Source: Porphyra umbilicalis
Taxonomy: Eukaryota; Rhodophyta; Bangiophyceae; Bangiales; Bangiaceae
Assembly (NCBI GenBank): GCA_002049455.2
Contig: KV918769.1
Location: forward strand, 1 to 64,000
Reading direction: 5' to 3'
Length of the DNA: 64,000 nucleotides
The notes below the pieces were generated by a model. It was not told the DNA's origin. It was given only the letters and a program-made list of their open reading frames with translations, and did not search any database. Both the position numbers and the translations under genes were made by a program. Below are positions 1 through 52,400 of this stretch, one piece after another. Positions within the stretch are counted from its first letter, which is position 1. Each line of letters starts with the position of its first letter.

Positions 1-140
1 GTGCTGGCGCCGTGCACAACCATGCGCCCACAGGCCTGGCCGCCGTGCCGCCCCGCGCCGACACCCTAGCGGGCGGCAAGGGCGCGCCACCGCCTTGAGG
101 ACGTCAAGCCCCCCCCGCCCGTGTGCGCTCGTCCCCCGCC

Positions 141-3100
141 ATGGACGACCAGTCGTCGACCGACGAGGAGGAGGCGCCCGGCACGTCGACAGCGCTTCGG
201 GCGCGTCGCAGCGGCCACTGTCCACGACGCGGCGCCCCACGACGACCACCAGTTTGGCGACAGCGCCGCCCGCGAGGCGACGGCGAGCGGCAACGACAAT
301 GCGGACAATGGCGGGGTGTGGCTGGGCCTGTGGGCGCAGACCTCGACGACCGACGACGAGGTCACGCGCCTCGGTGCGGCCGGCGAGGACGCGGCAATCA
401 AGGCGGGTGGCCACCTCGGCAGAGTGCGGCGTCTGCCGTGCGGTCGGCGACGGTGGAGGTTGCCGCCGCCGTCGCCGCGTGTGAGGCGGCCGGTGATGCG
501 GGGCCGGTGGCGAGCTTGCGTGCCGCGAGTGCCCTCCTGTCCAAGCTCCTCGCATCAAAGCCGGTGCACGCGCGGGGCACTGGGTCGCCCGCGTCGGCGG
601 CGATGGACGACGCCACGTCGGCCTCTTCTGCCGTGTTGCAAGCCGTCACCGCGGTGACGGTGCCGCCGCCCCGGCCACCCGCACCAGACGACGGTGACGA
701 GGGCGCCGCGGCACCCCCCGCCGATGCCGACACAAGAGCCGACGCCTCCGCCCGAGTGGCGTGCAGGCGCCTCTGCGCGCGAGCGCGTCACGCGGCGGGC
801 AGCGTCTTGTCGGCGGTCAAGGGCCTGATCCCCATGGTGCAGCCCGACGCGGGGGACCACGCGGGCGACGACGATGGCGACGGCAATGGTGGCGACGCTG
901 GCGCCACGGCGCGCGGCGGCGGCGGCACGCGTGGCCGCCAGCGTCGATGCGGCGGCTGCGGGGCGACGGGGCACAATGTGAAAACGTGTCCGGCTGACGC
1001 TGCCACCAAGGCGGCGCACGCGGCGCGTGGCGAGGCGGCCAAGGCGGCCAAGGGCGCCAAGGCCGGCAGCGGAAACAACAAGTGCAGTGCGTGCCACGCG
1101 CGTGGCCACACCCGGGCCAGCGCTGTGTGTCCGCTGCGAGCCGTCGCCCACGGCTGGTCGGGCCACAATGCAGACCGCGGGCGCGACTTGGGGTGCGTCG
1201 ACCAGCACCGCATGACGGGGGAGGTGACGACGACCGTTTCCGTGTCGGTCGACCGGTTTTTGGGTGTCCGACGACGGCTGGCGCCAGGGCGGCCGGCAAA
1301 CTCTTTGCCCCCGACGGGGCGCCCGCCTACGTCGTCGAGCCGTCGCGCGCCGACGGGGACCGCCGCCGCTGTCGCAAACGCTGCCGCCGCTGTCGCAAAC
1401 GCTGCCGCGGGGGCGGCCGCGCTGACCGAGCTGGACACGGCACAGACAAAGCATCTGCGGCTCGTTTCCATTGTCATGGACGGCACGATGCGGTACCTCC
1501 TCGAGCGCGTCGATGGTGGTGGCGGCGGGCAGGGTGCGGGCGGGGGCGGCGGCGGTGGCGGCGGCCACCGCCGGCGCACGCTCGACGAGTTTATCGCGGC
1601 CGTGCCGGCGTCGCTGACAAGCAACCACGGGCTTGCCTGGAAGCAGGTCGCTTCGACCGTCTCTTGTCGCGGCGTCGGTGCGTTTGGCGGCGCCCCCCGG
1701 CGGGCGTGCGTCGATTGCTCGGGTAGAGGCGCACGCGTCAAGCCCCGCGGGGACATCAAGGCCGTCGCCCAAGGCGACGGCGACTACTCTGCCTTTGTGG
1801 CGGCGTCGGCGGCGGTGGCAGACGCGGTGACCGAGCCAAGCCAGTTGCCGTGCAGCACGCTGCTGCCGGGTCCGGGCGACACGTCTGGTTGGGCCACCGT
1901 GGCGACGGCTTTTGAAAACCACTATGTGACGCACGTCACGTCGGCGGTCAAGACCATTGCCAAGTGCATCGTTCACGACGTCTACCCGCAGGCCCCCGGC
2001 GGTCTCGACGGACAGCGCCGCGCGGCACTGATTGCGGCCCTCGTTGCCGGCCTGCAAGCCGCCGACGGCACGCGCCCGCCGTCGTTCAAGTGGCCGGCGG
2101 GCGAAGTGTCTGCGGCGGATGGGGCTGCCATGGCGGCCGGGGCCACGCTGGCGTACGACACTGTGCTCGTCTACGCCGGTGGTGACGGTCGGCGGCGCTG
2201 TCTCCTCCAGCTCGACACGTCGACCCTGCGACAGCGGCCGCTGCACATATACCCGCTGCTCCACTATGCCCAGCTGTTGTGCATCCGTGCCGGCATCGAG
2301 GCGACCGACACGTCACCCGGCCGAGCCGCCACGTGCACCGCGTACGCGCGCGTCGGCGGCGCGCTGCTTCGCCGTCGCCTGGCGTCCGCCGGGGTGTCGC
2401 TGCCAGCGCCGACAACCGGCGGGCTGTTCATTCAAACGCTGCTCCGCCGCGCGCGCATTGTCGGCGCCAAGACGGTGGTCGGGCCCTCCATCGTGTCGGA
2501 CGGTGTCGGCGTGCACTTTACAATACGGCACCCCGCCACCGCCGCGTCGACGGCGGCCGCTCGGCGGGCGCGTCGTAAGGCTGCAAGTGACGGTCGTGGG
2601 GGGGGGGGGGGCCCACCGAGACGGCGAGCGTGCGGACGCAGCTGGACCGCATGGCGTTTTCGCCCGACGTCGTCAAGGAGCTGGCGTTTGTTGGGTGGGA
2701 CCCGGGCGTCGCGTCGATTGTCGCTGCCTACTGCCCCGGGGCGGTGCCGTTTGTTCAGTCACCTGCGCCGCACCTGCACGCGTATCGGGCGTACCGGGCG
2801 CTTCGGATTGCGGGCGACGCGCTCGCGCGGGCGGCCATGGCCGCGACCGCCGCTGCCGAGTGCCTCGTGCGGCGGGGTGGTCGGGTTTTGCCGACCGTCG
2901 ACGCGCTACACGCCAAGTTGGCTGACGTTGCGCGCGCGGCCAAGGCCACCGCGGCGGGCCTTCCCGTCGGCGGCGGTGACGCGGTGAGGCAGACGACAAA
3001 AAAGCGCGGCCGTGGAGCGCTCGGTGCGTCGACCAGGGCGGCGGGATCTCCCCCAAAGCGGACTCGTACACATCTGGTGGGCCCGCCGGCGGCCACGCCC

Positions 3101-5059
3101 GCGGCACAAGCGTCTTTGCCGCCTTTGAAGCACGCACCGACGGTGCCGACAGACGCGGTGGACCCCCCCCCCCCCAAGCGCCGGCGGTACAAGCAGCCGG
3201 CCTTTGGCGACGAGTGGCTGACCCCGATTCAACGGCAAGAGGTGGCCCGCAAGCGGGGGACGAGCGCCCCCGGCCGCCGCCGGGCCATCCTCACGCGCAT
3301 GCGCGCCACCGCGCACGCCACGATCAATGGCGGCAACGTCCAACCGTGGCACCTGTCCAACCACGTGTGTGTGTGGGTGGGCGAGGCGGCCCTATTCAAA
3401 GAGGCGGCGCACGCGACGGCGGCTGTCACGGCCAAGACAGAAGCGGCGGCGCACGCAGAGGCGGCATGGCGTGCAGTGTCGGTCGACAGTGGGGCACAGG
3501 CCGCGTGCGTCGTGCAGCGCGCGGCGCAGGACAAGCGCCAGACGGCGGCGGCATTGCGCACGGCAGAGAGAGTGGCGGCTGCGGCGGCCGCTGCTGCACC
3601 CGCTGCGCCCCCGCAGCTCGGCGCGCCCGGCACGTCGCTGCCGTCGGCCGACCGCTTGCGCGTGTTGTGTGCCGCACTCAAACGTGCGGCCGCCGCCGGA
3701 GGGCGCCTGCGCGTGCGCGTCCCGCCCACTGGTGCGACGCTGGTCGTCTCCAATGGCGCGTACCGCGAGGCGACGGGCGCCGGTATGACGAGGCGCGCCG
3801 AGGCGGCAGCGGTGGCGGTGTGGGCGGCGGCACACCCAGGCGTGTCGCGCGAGTCACTAACGGCCGGGTGCTCCCTCAAGGTCACGACGTGGGGCGCATG
3901 GGTGGTGGCGGCCACTGTGCGCATTGCGCGCACCTACACAGACGACTATCAGGCGGCGTACGGGGCGGCCGCGACGTACGGTCAACGCAAGGCGCGGCTA
4001 CACGCCCTCATCCAGCGCAACCGGTACGCGGCGGTGCTGGCGCGCCGCTTGACGGGCGGTTTGCTGCGGCGCACGGTGGACGGTACCAAGGCGGTGTTGG
4101 CGATTGGGCGGTGTCGGCCGCGCGCCGGCAGCGTCGACCTCGTGCGGCGCATGGCCAAACACGTGCACCTCGTGTACGTGGACGAGCACAATACGAGCCA
4201 GACGTGTGCAGAGTGCGGCCACGGCTTGTGCAACACGTACGTGTCGCCCGACTCGCCGGTGGACCTGACGCCCCTCAAGGCGGCAAGCAGTTACGCGCAT
4301 CGCGCGTCGGTGTCGGCGGCCAAGCGCGCCTCGCCCCTCCGCGGCGGCCGGCGCGCGCGACGGGGTGTGACGACCGGCAGTCGGTCGGGTCCACGCGACG
4401 GTGTGGCTGCCCAGCGCGCCAAGGAGCACGCAGAGGCGGTGCGGACAAAGGTGCTGCAGGCAATTGCGGCTCACGGCAAGTGGGCGTTTGGGACCGACCC
4501 GCTGGCGCTGTGGGGGGTCAAGCTGTGTACCAACGTCGCCTGCCCGGCTTCGTACGTCGGGCGAGACACCAACGCGGCGCGCAACATGTCCAAGATTGCC
4601 ATCAAGAGCATGCAGGGTCGGAGCATCTTCCCCCACATCCGGGGGTACACCGTGTCACGCGCGCCACCCCAGGAAGACCGTGTACAGGCGGTGCGGCACG
4701 CGGCTGCGATCGACGCGGGTACCTACGAGGCCGGCTACGGGTGGACGCGGTGTTCACCCACGTCGTGGGAGCCCTGGCGCCGACCTGTCGTCGCCGACGC
4801 GCCGGTCGCAGAGGCGGGGACGGCCCCCACGGCCGTGCCAGTGGCGGCGCCAACGGTGCGGCTAGAGGCGCTGGGTGTGGTGGCAGACGGGGCGCACGAC
4901 GCAGCTGCTGCGTCGGCAAGCGGTGACCTGGCGACGAGTAACGTCGGCCAGATGGCTGCTGCCAGCCCCGCGCCAGCCGCCGGGCACAGCCACTCGTCTT
5001 CGAGCCGCCTCGCGCGGGTAATCGTAGACTGTTCACCAGGTTCATCTCGTGGGGTATGA
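141..5059 (+). CDS. Fanzor-family (eukaryotic TnpB) RNA-guided nuclease with N-terminal zinc knuckles
   Basis: Fanzors are eukaryotic relatives of transposon TnpB: RuvC nucleases guided by an RNA made from the element's 3' end. Seen here: two CCHC knuckles at nt 943-993 and 1083-1131, then a long Ala-rich region, then the RuvC parts. RuvC-I is VGWDPGVAS (Asp codon 2699-2701). RuvC-II is YVDEHNTSQTC (Glu codon 4184-4186). The zinc ribbon is CAEC at 4205-4216 paired with CTNVAC at 4526-4543. RuvC-III is GRDTNAARN (Asp codon 4565-4567). All three catalytic acids and four cysteines are intact. The knuckle half (frame of nt 141) and the RuvC half (frame of nt 2630, which lacks an ATG) join at a run of 14 G, 2598-2611, so I treat them as one gene with a one-run frameshift. 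Composition also suggests frame changes near nt 200 and 420. ATG 141 is the first in-frame ATG. The gap of about 495 residues between RuvC-I and RuvC-II is large. Family call firm; the join and the start are inferred. Confidence 0.82.
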
Positions 5060-5118
5060 ATAGGGAGCTTCGCTCCTCACCTCTTCCAGAGGTGACTACT
5101 GGTCTATGTCCTGGTGAA
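5032..5118 (+). ncRNA. Candidate guide-RNA (omega/fRNA) scaffold at the Fanzor 3' end
   Basis: The sequence folds as a four-stem cloverleaf. P1 is TTCACCAGG 5032-5040 with CCTGGTGAA 5110-5118 (9 bp, perfect). P2 is TTCAT 5041-5045 with ATGAA 5056-5060. P3 is GGAGC 5064-5068 with GCTCC 5072-5076 (3-nt loop). P4 is TCACCTC 5077-5083 with GAGGTGA 5089-5095 (5-nt loop). P1/P2 and P3/P4 abut, allowing coaxial stacking. The Fanzor stop codon 5057-5059 lies inside P2, so RNA and coding sequence overlap, as TnpB and Fanzor guide RNAs commonly do with the 3' end of their nuclease gene. If this is right, the guide would be the sequence immediately 3' of 5118. Structure seen; function inferred. It could instead be a transposon-end hairpin or an mRNA 3' structure. 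Confidence 0.55.
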
Positions 5119-5483
5119 AATCCGACGACAGTTTTGATTGTTGTGTCTTCATGATGTCTTGATCGAAAGCCCATTGGCTCTGTCACTCACGGCGCTGATA
5201 GTCAACCAATGAAAGAGCAACACGGAATGAAACAAATGTGAATTTTTTAAAGTAGGACGGGGCAGAACACTCTGATTTTCAACGGAAAAGCCTGCAGCCA
5301 AGCATCCCGCGCAGAGCTCCTGGGTCGAGACTCTGCCGTGGCAGCAACCGGCGGCACGAGCACTCTGCTGCCTGAGGACGAGGCCGCCGTCTTGCGGTGC
5401 TGCTTGCCTGTCTTCTCATCTCCCCCCTGTTTTACGCCTTTGTTGGTGTCCGTCGTGGTGTGTTCCCTTTGCGGTGTCCTCGA
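5119..5483. other. Intergenic: probable right flank of the Fanzor element and upstream region of the next gene
   Basis: No gene is seen. An inverted repeat CATTGG...CCAATG lies at about 5175-5212. GC content drops sharply relative to the Fanzor coding sequence right after the cloverleaf, consistent with leaving the element. No terminal repeat could be paired with the left end, which may lie at or beyond the window start. Confidence 0.4.
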
Positions 5484-7301: not shown

Positions 7302-7476
7302 GCGGGATGCCCTACAGTGCATCATGGCGCCTGGCTGCAACCCATGCAACCGAGATATTGCTGCTTGGTCACTGGGACCGGCCCGCACGAGATGAGACGT
7401 TCAACGGATTAACCGTGCGATGAAGCATGGATTGACCGAAGGGCCCGGGCTCTACACTTTTATCAAGACAAAACGC

Positions 7477-8282
7477 TTAGTCGAACAGCCCGAAGCCCAT
7501 GTCCTCATCCGACTCCTCCTCGGCCTCCTCCTCCTTCTTCTGTATAGCATCAACCAGCAGGATTGTGAAGTGACAGACAGACACACGCAAAATAACTGCG
7601 TCAGGATCAACACACACCAAGGAACGACTTCCCAATTGGATCTCGATCGAACTGGCACAAGGCCATCACCGTGGCAGCAGCAGCACAGCTGCTCCAAAGC
7701 ATCGCCCACAGCCCCTTTCCACGCGTCTCCACTCCCCAAACGTACCTCCTCCTCGGCCGGAGCAGCCCCACCGACCGGCGCCGCAGCAGCCGGCGCACCC
7801 CCCGTGGGCGCCGCGCTCATCCCCTTAACAATGTCGTCAACCGAAACCTTCTGCAGCAGCTTGGCAAACAGGGATGGCCAGAAAGCCTCCACATCGACGT
7901 TGGCAGCCTTCACCAGGGCAGAGATCTTATCCTCCTGCGACCACACTCAGCAAAAAAAAAACCCATGAAAGCACTAGTATCACCAAGCGTTGTAACCACG
8001 TCAGCATCACGGCTCGATATGGCATACAGTCATAGATCTACGAGCGACAGCGCGCACTTGCCGAGCAACTCAATGCGCCCAAATCACAAAGCACTGACAT
8101 TGCCACAATACGCACAGCAGCGCAAAACTGCCTTCACGTCGAAAATCATGCACCCCAGAACATCAATGCATCCGTGACGATGTCCTGCAGGCGCACGCAG
8201 GCGCACAACATACCGTGATGCTAATGCTCTCATCGTGAAGGATGAGGGCGGCGTACACGCAGGCCATCTCGCTAGAGGCCAT
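7477..8282 (-). CDS. RPLP1: 60S acidic ribosomal protein P1, three exons
   Basis: P1 forms the ribosomal stalk with P2 and P0 and recruits translation GTPases. The gene splices exactly. Exon 1 is 8282-8214 ([17 protein letters not shown]..., 23 codons). Intron 1 is 8213-7935 (GTATGT...GCAG). Exon 2 is 7934-7746 ([20 protein letters not shown]..., 63 codons). Intron 2 is 7745-7540 (GTACGT...ACAG). Exon 3 is 7539-7477 (20 codons plus TAA), ending in [10 protein letters not shown], the universal acidic P-protein tail that binds translation factors. Both introns are phase 0. The product is 106 residues, the normal P1 length, with the usual N-terminal helical dimer domain, an Ala/Gly/Pro hinge and an acidic tail. 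No defects were seen. It is divergent from EMC4. P1 rather than P2 is chosen from the [11 protein letters not shown] start and the VNVEPFWP-like segment. Confidence 0.95.
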
Positions 8283-49428: not shown

Positions 49429-52400
49429 CCACCGGTGTTGGGCCCTCCCCGCGGCAACCGGTGGACCCAACCCGGGACGTGGATAAGATGCCAGTACGCA
49501 TCCTATCCCGACCCAAGGGGATCCGCCCCCGGGACGCACCCCTCCCGAAGGGGGTAAGCGGCCAGAATGTGGTGGCCATCCTGACGGGGTCCAACTACCA
49601 GGTGGCCAGTCGCGTCTGGCTGGACGCGGGGCGTGAGCTAGCCCTCCGCGTCATCGTCGACACGGGGTCGTGTGTCTCCCTAGTACGGGAAGCGCTACTC
49701 CCCCCGGAGATGGAGGTGGCGCCCTTAGACGCGGCGACCGCCCAGTTGTTTGACGTGAATGGGGGACTCCTCCCCATCACGGGCACCGTGACTCTTACGG
49801 TGCGAGTCGGCACTTACTCCACCCCAGTCACGTGTGGGGTAGTGCCGGGCATGTCGGTCCCCCTACTCCTAGGGACCGAGTACACGGACGTCCATGTCCC
49901 CAACATTTGTGGGCCCAAGGGGTACATCCGGTTACTAAACGGATGTAGGGTCCCCATCCTCCGTCGGGGTAAGACGGTGTCGTATGCCCGGGCGGACCAA
50001 CCCCAGTCGGGGACCGCTAGTGAGGCGGACACCAAGGTGCACCTAGCACGCGAGGTGGTTATACCCCCGAGGTCCCGAGGATACGTCCCAGTACAGACGT
50101 CGTTCCAAGGGAATGGGGTCATCACCCAGCGCCATCGGGTGTATGAGCGCCACCGCGTGCATGTTGCAACTGGCACCATGGACTGCACCGCCAACCAGAC
50201 GTGGTGGGTGGAGGTAACCCATACGGGGAACACGAGTAAGCGACTCCCCAAGGGCATGGTCATGGGGCATATGTCGGCCTACTCCGGTACGGTAGCCGCC
50301 ATATCCCGAGAGGACTGGGCTGCACTCAGCCCCAGTCCGACGACCGCGCCCGACGCAACGGACCCCGTGGAGGAGCCCCACGTTCATACTTCGAACGTGC
50401 CCGAGGGGCTGCGGCCTCACGTGCTCGCCCTACTGGAGAAGCACCGAGCCCTCTGGAGTGGGCACTTGGGCTCCATCAAGGCCACGGAGCACCGGATCGA
50501 GTTGAAACCGGGCTCCAAGCCCGTCCGGCTCAACCCCTACCGGATGGGTCCCCGAACTAGGGAACTCATCAAGGCCCAAGTCGACCGAATGCTCAAGCTC
50601 GAAGTTATAGAGCCCAGCCAGAGTAAATGGGCTAGCCCGGTGGTACTCATCCCGAAGCCCGACGGGAGTCCCCGGTTCTGCATCGACTATCGGCAGTTGA
50701 ACGAGCGCACAGTACGCGACTCGTATCCACTACCCCGGATGGACGACTGCCTCGACTCCTTAGGGGATGCACAGTTCTTCTCCACGTTGGACTGCAACGC
50801 GGGGTACTGGCAGATCCCCCTAGCCGAGGAGGATAAGCCGAAGACGGCATTCACTTGCCACTGTGGGACGTACCAGTGTACGCGTCTTCCGTTTGGCCTG
50901 TGCAATGCCCCTGCCACTTTCCAGCGGGCTATTGACATGATCCTATCCGGAGTCAAGTGGCAGAATGTGCTCGTCTACTTAGACGACCTCATCATCTTCT
51001 CCGCCGATGCCGAGTCGCACCTGTCCCACTTGGACACGGTGCTCACCTTACTCGGGAAGCACGGGGTCACACTCAAGGCACAGAAGTGCCACCTCTTTAC
51101 TAATGAGGTGGAGTACCTTGGCCATGTAGTACGGCCAGGACGCTTGAGTGTTAACGAGAAGAACCTCAAGGCCATCAAGAAGGCCAGCTTCTCCCAGACC
51201 CAAACCCAACTTAGGAGTTTCCTGGGGATGTGCAACGTCTACCGTCGGTTCACGGTAGACTTCGCTAAGACCGCGAAGCCGCTGAACAACTTGAACAGCG
51301 TAAAGCTTCCGAAGCGGTTGAGTCTCCCTACTCCGGAGGAACAGAACGCGTTCGACAAACTACGCGAACAGCTATGCCACCCGCCCATCCTTGCGATACC
51401 GCGCAAGGAGGGGAAGTACATCATCGATGTGGACGCTAGCTACGACCAGCTAGGGTGCTGCCTACTACAGCAGCAACCCGATGGCAAGTACCTGCCTGTA
51501 GGCTACTTCAGTAAGGGCCTACTACCGGCGGAGAAGAACTACACCGTCACCGAGATTGAGGGACTAGGTGTGGTGTGGGCGGTCGGTTTACTACGACCGT
51601 ACATCGAAGGCACCAAGTTCCTCATCCGGTGTGACCACAAGGCACTGAAGTGGATACTAACCACGACGGCCTGCACCAACAATCGACTCAATCGTTGGCG
51701 AATCCTCCTCTCGGAGTTCGACTATGATGTGGAGTACAAGCCCGGCCCCCAACATGCGGTGGCCGACGCTCTGTCCCGCATCCCGACTGAGGGGCTGGAC
51801 ACGGGACCCATCTCCCAGGAGATCCCCACAGTCGGGGTGACCACTCGATCGGGGGCGGTACTCGACCCCCGACTCCCCGAGAACAGGGAGACTGCCCGCA
51901 TACCCCTGGGCGAACTAGTCCAGAAGCAGGCAACAGACGAGTTCTGTCAGGGGGTCAAGAAGTTACTTGACACCCCCACCCCTACGCGCTTCTACGAGAA
52001 CGCAGACGGGTTGTTGTGCCGGCGCGGACACCGCGAGGGGACCCAGCAGGTACTGGTCCCCCAGCCCCTAGTCAAGGACGCATTACGGGCGGAGCACTCC
52101 TCCCCCTTGGCTGCGCATCCAGGTGGGACGCGCATGTACCAGACCCTGCGGGACCAATACTACTGGCCCTCGCTGGCGATGGATGTGTTCGGGTGGGTGG
52201 CAGCTTGCCCCACCTGTGCTAAGAACCGGCTCATGGGTACGCAGAGTAAAGCGTTCATGAGGTTGTTCCCCGCGACGGAACCCTTCGCAGCGCTGGCCAT
52301 TGACTTACTTGGCCCCCTTCCCAGGACCCCCGAAGGATATGAGTATATCCTAGTTATTTGTGACCGATTTACTAAGGTTACTCGGGCGGTCCCGCTTCGA

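Follow-up and report, generated by a model that had tools for sequence, protein, structure and literature searches.

A proposed Fanzor1-type guide-RNA scaffold merged with a Helitron-type terminus in the red alga Porphyra umbilicalis

Introduction

The guide RNAs of Fanzor1 systems derive from the 3′ end of the Fanzor gene, have a total length of 75 to 150 nucleotides (nt), and reach about 15 nt into the flank of the insertion as guide (PMC10432273, PMC11423790, PMC10711439). They form three stems, and bases of the target duplication are taken into the terminal stem (PMC10711439). The presence of Fanzor genes in Helitron-like elements is already known. The CRe-1, CRe-2 and CRe-3 elements described by Bao and Jurka have intact 3′ ends, 5′ truncation, and target duplications of variable length (PMC3627910). 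Here we describe a many-copy element of Porphyra umbilicalis that appears to carry a very large Fanzor1-type gene. We analysed one copy in a stretch of 64,000 nt (hereafter the window), which forms the start of contig KV918769.1 (GCA_002049455.2; our contig C9), and all positions refer to its forward strand. Positions 5035–5103 probably combine a guide-RNA scaffold of Fanzor1 type with a terminator of Helitron type.

In the consulted portions of the literature on Fanzor, including papers that also treat Helitrons or non-LTR retrotransposons, we found no guide-RNA scaffold of a Helitron-type Fanzor; the search for omegaRNA was weak, as the Greek letter may be the printed form. What the present locus adds is detail: a probable merged scaffold and terminator, structural turnover between subfamilies, a very large protein, and a retroelement that appears to target the scaffold.

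Results

Right end of the element

The contig starts inside the element, the 3′ part of which occupies positions 1–5102. Genome-wide counts given below come from searches of the 84-Mb assembly that holds the window. Among the copies compared, five others (L010, L017, L025, L026, and L028) match from window position 1 onward, and the sequence common to copies extends about 8–10 kb or more from the right end, with nested repeats within it. In 39 of 40 scored places (out of 111 candidates), the match ended at query positions 152–169, mostly at 154, which corresponds to window position 5103. Aligned right ends of the window's type are shared up to ...GACTACTGGT (5103), beyond which the flanks are unrelated, apart from L014 and L021, which have one flank in common. 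The right end of L057 departs from the others at its last two bases. The element ends at the CTGG that closes at 5102, T5103 is a target base, and the insertions are followed by different sequences.

The original prediction, which was made from the window alone, had described a cloverleaf RNA that ended at 5118 and was followed by a guide from 5119. Both boundaries have to be moved upstream. Aligned right ends place the end of the element at 5102, with T5103 as the last shared base, and variable sequence begins at 5104. The genome search that it had suggested bore out the expected pattern, in that many copies share the scaffold and differ in the sequence after it.

The Fanzor-type gene

The open reading frame (ORF) for the C-terminal part of the protein spans 2591–5059 (forward strand) and stops at TGA 5057–5059. 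It contains the RuvC-I DPG motif described for Fanzors (PMC10711439) as VGWDPGV, with the aspartate at residue 37 of an ORF of 822 amino acids. The alternative catalytic glutamate described in the same paper lies six residues before the zinc finger (E-HNTSQT-C, E532/C539; PMC10711439). The TnpB-type C4 zinc finger, followed 5–50 residues on by RD (PMC3627910), is found as a split finger with cysteines at 539, 542, 646, and 651 (a fifth is at 547) and RD at 658–659. Of 39 places matched by PF07282 in the genome, 32 scored above its cut-off; all ten members of alignment A3 matched it, while the window's ORF of 809 amino acids, scanned alone, scored 26.0, just below the cut-off of 26.3. The NCBIfam model guided_TnpB gave an E value of 0.11. 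A protein search for homologues outside this genome returned a single match, P0001, from a metagenome.

In the window copy, a run of 14 G (2598–2611) lies at the frame change of the N-terminal part (from 123). The frame is uninterrupted over 1660 codons in L028, a copy of subfamily A. Several copies of subfamily B have two ORFs, split at a proline-rich stretch.

Fold of the last 69 nucleotides

The original prediction of a structured 3′ end that overlaps the stop codon of a Fanzor-type gene is supported, in a corrected form. The proposed scaffold of 69 nt (5035–5103), defined from the fold of the exact 69-mer, alignments, and a genome census, has a minimum free energy of −28.3 kcal/mol (z −2.78; 2 of 200 shuffles were equally good). 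Its centroid is a cloverleaf in which three hairpins, P2, P3, and P4, are closed by a stem of five base pairs (bp), P1. The 5′ arm of P1, ACCAG (5035–5039), pairs with CTGGT (5099–5103) through A5035-T5103, C5036-G5102, C5037-G5101, A5038-T5100, and G5039-C5099. Its 3′ arm thus consists of CTGG (5099–5102), the CTRR-type 3′ terminus of the element, and T5103, a near-invariant target base with which the flank begins. The terminal CTGG and the target T can therefore supply one arm of a 5-bp stem that closes a structure of the last 69 nt.

P2 (5041–5060; TTCAT 5041–5045 with ATGAA 5056–5060) holds the stop codon, as had been claimed. P3 (5064–5076) is GGAGC-TTC-GCTCC, with arms at 5064–5068 and 5072–5076. 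Both hairpins, in this form, belong to the window's class of scaffold. P4 (5077–5095) is the 19-nt palindrome TCACCTCT-TCC-AGAGGTGA, first read as 5078–5084 paired with 5088–5094 and extendable to 8 bp; it is proposed to be both a scaffold stem and a subterminal hairpin of Helitron type. The predicted guide would start in the host flank at 5104–5118, a length of about 15 nt taken by analogy with published Fanzor1 RNAs. No tRNA was predicted in the window, and no Rfam family reached its gathering score.

Conservation across copies and subfamilies

The fetched loci contain 36 distinct complete scaffolds, each of which forms one row of alignment A1: 25 of class 1 (the window type), seven of class 2, and four of class 3. 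In the sequence that precedes the scaffold, class 1 copies share 88–94% identity with the class 2 copy L036. The last ~65 nt of class 2 differ, with P2 and P3 replaced by one 12-bp hairpin, and the fold is a three-way junction, so that the four-way shape is not family-wide. The class 2 P4 is a longer stem of different sequence in which 10–12 of 12 positions are paired (seq. n = 7), and L107 carries a further two-sided change in it, from G-C to A-U. The centre pair of P1 is U-A in six of the seven class 2 sequences. Four of the seven class 2 70-mers were folded together with shuffles and gave z scores of −2.86 to −5.20. In class 1, P4 is fully paired in 22 of 25 sequences and has one mismatch in the other three.

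P1 is complete, with all five pairs, in 23 of 25 class 1, five of seven class 2, and three of four class 3 scaffolds; over the whole of A1, 96.7% of P1 cells are paired. The four-helix structure pairs 87.9% of cells, and P2 and P3 fit only 81% because class 2 departs from them. Seven pairs of the four helices show two-sided changes, compared with 4.2 ± 0.9 in shuffles (1 of 500), and slid versions of the structure have at most four such pairs. Through a two-sided change, a divergent subfamily retains the 5-bp stem P1. As far as covariation between homologous loci had been anticipated, the corrected P1 and the P4 hairpin are kept, while P2 and P3 are replaced in class 2. P1 is the firm part of the fold, and P4 comes second.

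We also took a census of scaffolds with a pattern in which both bases of the central P1 pair may vary. It matched 64 places in the genome and one in a reversed control. The free pair was C-G in 56 scaffolds, U-A in six, U-G in one, and C-A in one, so that 63 of the 64 have a standard pair.

Five copies of subfamily A and eight of subfamily B differ by 7–38% per 50 nt over 3301–4100, and in the last 1 kb (from ~4100) the likeness between subfamilies is, over most of its length, about that within them. This suggests that the 3′ part underwent recent recombination or gene conversion.

A probable Helitron-type end and alternative explanations

The original prediction had not recognised that the end is Helitron-like, which gives P4 and the terminal bases a further likely function, that of a terminator of transposition. 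The 3′ end looks Helitron-type because CTRR is followed by T, a palindrome is subterminal, and 5′-truncated copies have duplications that begin with T. The last four bases of the fetched complete scaffolds are CTGG, CTAG, or CTGA, all of which conform to CTRR. The next base is T in 64 places found with one pattern, and another base in one place found with the counterpart pattern. The palindrome P4 ends 7 nt upstream of the element end. Target duplications were found in five of the eight 5′-truncated copies examined; these five retain 618, 83, 22, 29, and 18 nt and have duplications of 21, 14, 12, 9, and 7 bp, respectively. All five duplications begin with the T of CTRR|T, and an A precedes in four of the five. 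The remaining truncated copies (L113, L117, for which there are 92 bases of sequence, and L120) have 6-base matches at most, which were not counted. Among 19 long or partial copies, L023 is the one clear case of a target duplication; the other 18 have no 6-base match or matches of only 6–7 bases, and many of them may stop short of the left end. Helitrons are defined as lacking target-site duplications, and the duplications of 7–21 bp depart from that definition.

In bat Helitrons and Helraiser, a CTRR end (CTAG) is likewise joined to T and a 19-base palindrome is present, which is 11 nt from the end in Helraiser and 7 nt here (PMC4778049). Unlike Helraiser (PMC4778049), the truncated copies here carry target duplications, and no 5′-TC end was found. 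There is also a close likeness to CRe-1, CRe-2, and CRe-3 of Chlamydomonas reinhardtii, which carry a Fanzor1 gene and a 3′ hairpin, have conserved 3′ ends, frequent 5′ truncation, and duplications in truncated copies, and are described as non-autonomous (PMC3627910). They are of Helitron2 type with T-rich targets, whereas the element here has a CTRR 3′ end and mostly A|T targets; their genes have 5–10 exons, in contrast to the uninterrupted frame of 1660 codons in one copy here, and they were described before the guide RNA was known (PMC3627910).

The structure could be nothing more than the DNA terminator of a Helitron-like element, with the Fanzor-type gene as a passenger or served by an RNA from elsewhere. 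We consider this unlikely. In its favour, all Helitron-type features lie within the last 27 nt, P4 forms a robust stem whereas P2 and P3 are lost from one subfamily to another, and truncated copies of only 18–22 nt were inserted. It is less easily reconciled with P1, which keeps a standard free pair in 63 of 64 copies, the two-sided change included. To our knowledge, no Helitron terminator needs an arm 60 nt upstream that pairs with CTRR and T, which is why the kept pairing counts against a terminator alone. In addition, known Fanzor1 RNAs occupy exactly this position and are closed by such a stem (PMC10711439).

A still less probable explanation is that copies arose by target-primed reverse transcription by a long interspersed nuclear element (LINE) acting in trans, in which case the conserved 3′ fold would be a recognition signal for the reverse transcriptase. 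Intact 3′ ends combined with 5′ truncation and target duplications are the classic signature of non-LTR (long terminal repeat) retrotransposition. The copies here show intact 3′ ends, graded 5′ truncation, and duplications of 7–21 bp, and the genome is rich in reverse transcriptases (at least 150 matches, with 150 scored of 847 candidates). We retain this rival because the truncation pattern fits reverse transcription too. However, a Helitron-type end is the better match for CTRR with a near-invariant T, A|T at four of five targets, and a subterminal palindrome. In addition, an RNA that runs on into the flank would not produce a 3′ end this exact, and the same truncation pattern has been described for Fanzor1 Helitrons (PMC3627910).

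There is very little chance that the scaffold is, as first described, 5032–5118 closed by a 9-bp P1 and followed by the guide after 5118, since the 3′ arm of that stem lies in host flank and 41 of 42 copies lack the stem, perfect as it is in the window copy. All four complementarities claimed within these 87 nt were found in their places, including the 9-bp complement TTCACCAGG (5032–5040) with CCTGGTGAA (5110–5118), and the 87-mer folds better than all 200 of its shuffles (z −3.02). Among 42 copies with usable flank (a set without the eight loci L029–L036, which are interrupted, rearranged, or class 2), the stem is present in the window copy itself; the other 41 form Watson-Crick pairs at 0–6 of the nine positions. 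The next longest stems between flank and scaffold were 8 and 7 bp, and sampled copy flanks formed a stem of at least 9 bp to the scaffold with a frequency of 0.0027 each. The 9-bp P1 is a coincidence, and one case in 42 is unremarkable, the more so as the window copy was the one that was read; the predicted guide simply contains a chance complement at 5110–5118.

Several observations weigh against a guide-RNA scaffold merged with a Helitron-type terminator, and they concern the fold, the protein, and the element. With 15 more bases at its 5′ side (start at 5020), the window sequence folds differently. The commonest class 1 variant prefers P1 together with a long UCAUCUC/GAGGUGA stem over P2–P4, and this alternative pairs 89.8% of cells, compared with 87.9% for the four helices. 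The four-way junction of the original prediction is therefore retained as a prediction for the window 69-mer, and is not borne out in class 2 or in the commonest class 1 variant. The consensus fold of A1 is weak (−3.99 kcal/mol), retaining P1 and four P4 pairs and losing P2 and P3; the class 2 sequences by themselves have an unfavourable covariation term (+0.9). The count of pair types in the four helices is not above that of shuffles (127 of 500). Taken by itself, P1 has a single two-sided pair, a number that 416 of 500 shuffles reach as well; the six U-A scaffolds of the census are related and probably go back to one old event common to class 2; and an additional, internal CUAGU of class 2 could pair with the 5′ arm of P1. 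For these three reasons the support of the census for P1 is modest. No peak of conservation over the scaffold relative to the neighbouring ORF was found, because the last 1 kb of A and B copies is homogenised.

For the protein, the described spacing D-X(125,275)-[TS][TS] (PMC3627910) is exceeded, with 497 residues between RuvC-I and the zinc finger, which would represent a large insertion. Because this defining spacing is lacking, the protein is called Fanzor-type by its sequence fingerprint. Among solved protein chains, sequence comparison gave no relevant match, Fanzor structures included. For the element, the left end, 5′-TC included, was not found in several attempts, where nested repeats and a gap intervene. 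The genome contains 28 matches to the Helitron Rep domain, but no RepHel was found on the contigs of the 39 Fanzor-type PF07282 places; the family would thus be non-autonomous, and the Helitron-like element is probably so.

Proposed mechanism and comparison with known Fanzor1 RNAs

On the side of the merged scaffold and terminator, the conserved sequence lies at the 3′ end of the gene with variable sequence at once after it, and, by prediction only, terminal and target-derived bases form a stem (ACCAG/CUGGU, with T5103). A guide-RNA role is suggested by this position and by known Fanzor1 systems. Transcripts through the 3′ end of the gene would be processed to a scaffold ending at T5103, its last base, plus about 15 nt of flank as guide from 5104. 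Once bound by the Fanzor protein, the RNA would direct it to the flank of the insertion itself, as in characterised Fanzor1 systems; the likely target is this flank where it lies at a sister site or an empty one. The element could gain from being restored by repair, a benefit already proposed for TnpB and suggested for Fanzors linked to Helitrons. In DNA, the rolling-circle terminator would consist of the P4 palindrome together with CTRR, and folding the fixed T into P1 would leave the guide free of transposase constraint.

The Fanzor1 RNAs of Spizellomyces, Guillardia, and Parasitella (PMC10432273, PMC11423790) and that of ascovirus SfAV (PMC10711439) are, as here, located at the gene 3′ end, and they share a terminal double-stranded stem, flank nucleotides within the scaffold, and a variable guide next to it. 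The GtFz1 RNA overlaps its ORF, as here (PMC10432273, PMC11423790), and the Spizellomyces scaffold has 75 nt compared with 69 nt here (PMC10432273). The SpuFz1 and SfAV elements end in inverted repeats (PMC10432273, PMC10711439), whereas this element has a CTRR end and target T. GtFz1 seems to be without inverted repeats (PMC10432273, PMC11423790). A search of five upstream stretches of the present family for an inverted end motif (up to two mismatches) found none. Unlike in these known RNAs, the predicted junction here varies by subfamily, four-way or three-way.

This Fanzor family, Helitron-like and present in the genome as dozens of insertions, combines exact 3′ ends and graded truncations with a predicted guide for each copy and one or more uninterrupted genes. 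It would serve to test whether the empty donor site is cut by means of the guide RNA, and it leads to a prediction of how a scaffold accommodates a CTRR|T end.

A putative retroelement inserted in the proposed scaffold

Ten fetched copies (L029–L034 and L070–L073) are interrupted after P2 by the same LINE-like sequence; the observation also draws on L058, L099, and L100, and the target corresponds to about window 4980–5079. At C116 and C55, the two loci traced across the insert, it is ~8.1 kb long and has an opposite-strand ORF in pieces with reverse-transcriptase motifs seen by eye. Pfam and PDB searches with the ORF pieces gave no significant match, and the LINE-like label reflects those motifs. 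At both loci, the left Fanzor copy runs to ~5079 and a second Fanzor 3′ end follows the insert from ~4980, an overlap that implies a target duplication of ~90–100 bp. The right-hand copy at C116 has a complete scaffold and terminator. The retroelement occurs behind 5′ halves resembling class 1, 2, and 3; C55 has two insertions in tandem. Perhaps C288 has a tandem also, with two tails 8.2 kb apart. Besides C5, 21 places match the first 700 bases of the insert, in whole or in part, to the end of the compared stretch, and eight of these are among the ten interrupted copies. The insert looks like a site-specific, R2-like retroelement whose address is the scaffold.

We put forward, tentatively and with somewhat more doubt than confidence, that one 69-nt sequence has three users: the Fanzor protein, as a guide scaffold in RNA; the Helitron-type element, as a terminator in single-stranded DNA; and the LINE-like retroelement, as an address in double-stranded DNA, whose ~90–100 bp target duplication would leave the scaffold and terminator complete. 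The closing stem would absorb CTRR and T, and the freedom of the guide and the ends of transposition would have co-evolved in an HUH-type element as they have in IS607 and inverted-repeat elements.

Other loci and genomic context

A short right-end pattern was noisy, with 101 matches compared with 53 in its control, and four of the 20 loci obtained with it (L108, L109, L110, and L119) look unrelated. By eye, L101, L104, and L106 have one 5′-truncated class 2 scaffold with both flanks in common; they appear to be a duplicated segment with an orphan scaffold that lacks upstream Fanzor sequence. Upstream of the Fanzor gene at C60 (L059:116–1120 and L059:3422–4423) are an ORF for a Ulp1-type protease, with Peptidase_C48 above its cut-off, and a leucine-rich-repeat ORF. 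A tandem array with a period of ~193 bp, the units of which are 97–98% identical, also lies upstream of this Fanzor copy (L059:2247–3237; C60:97246–98236).

Phage records contain no match to 4950–5300, and the genes of the assembly mark it as eukaryotic. On the minus strand of the window, 7452–7946 holds an apparent exon of the acidic ribosomal protein P1/P2 family, recognised by eye in the ORF list, which points to ordinary eukaryotic chromosomal DNA beyond the element. Further along the window, a reverse-transcriptase domain, counted among the 150 scored matches above, is found at 50649–51128 within an open frame of 1341 codons.

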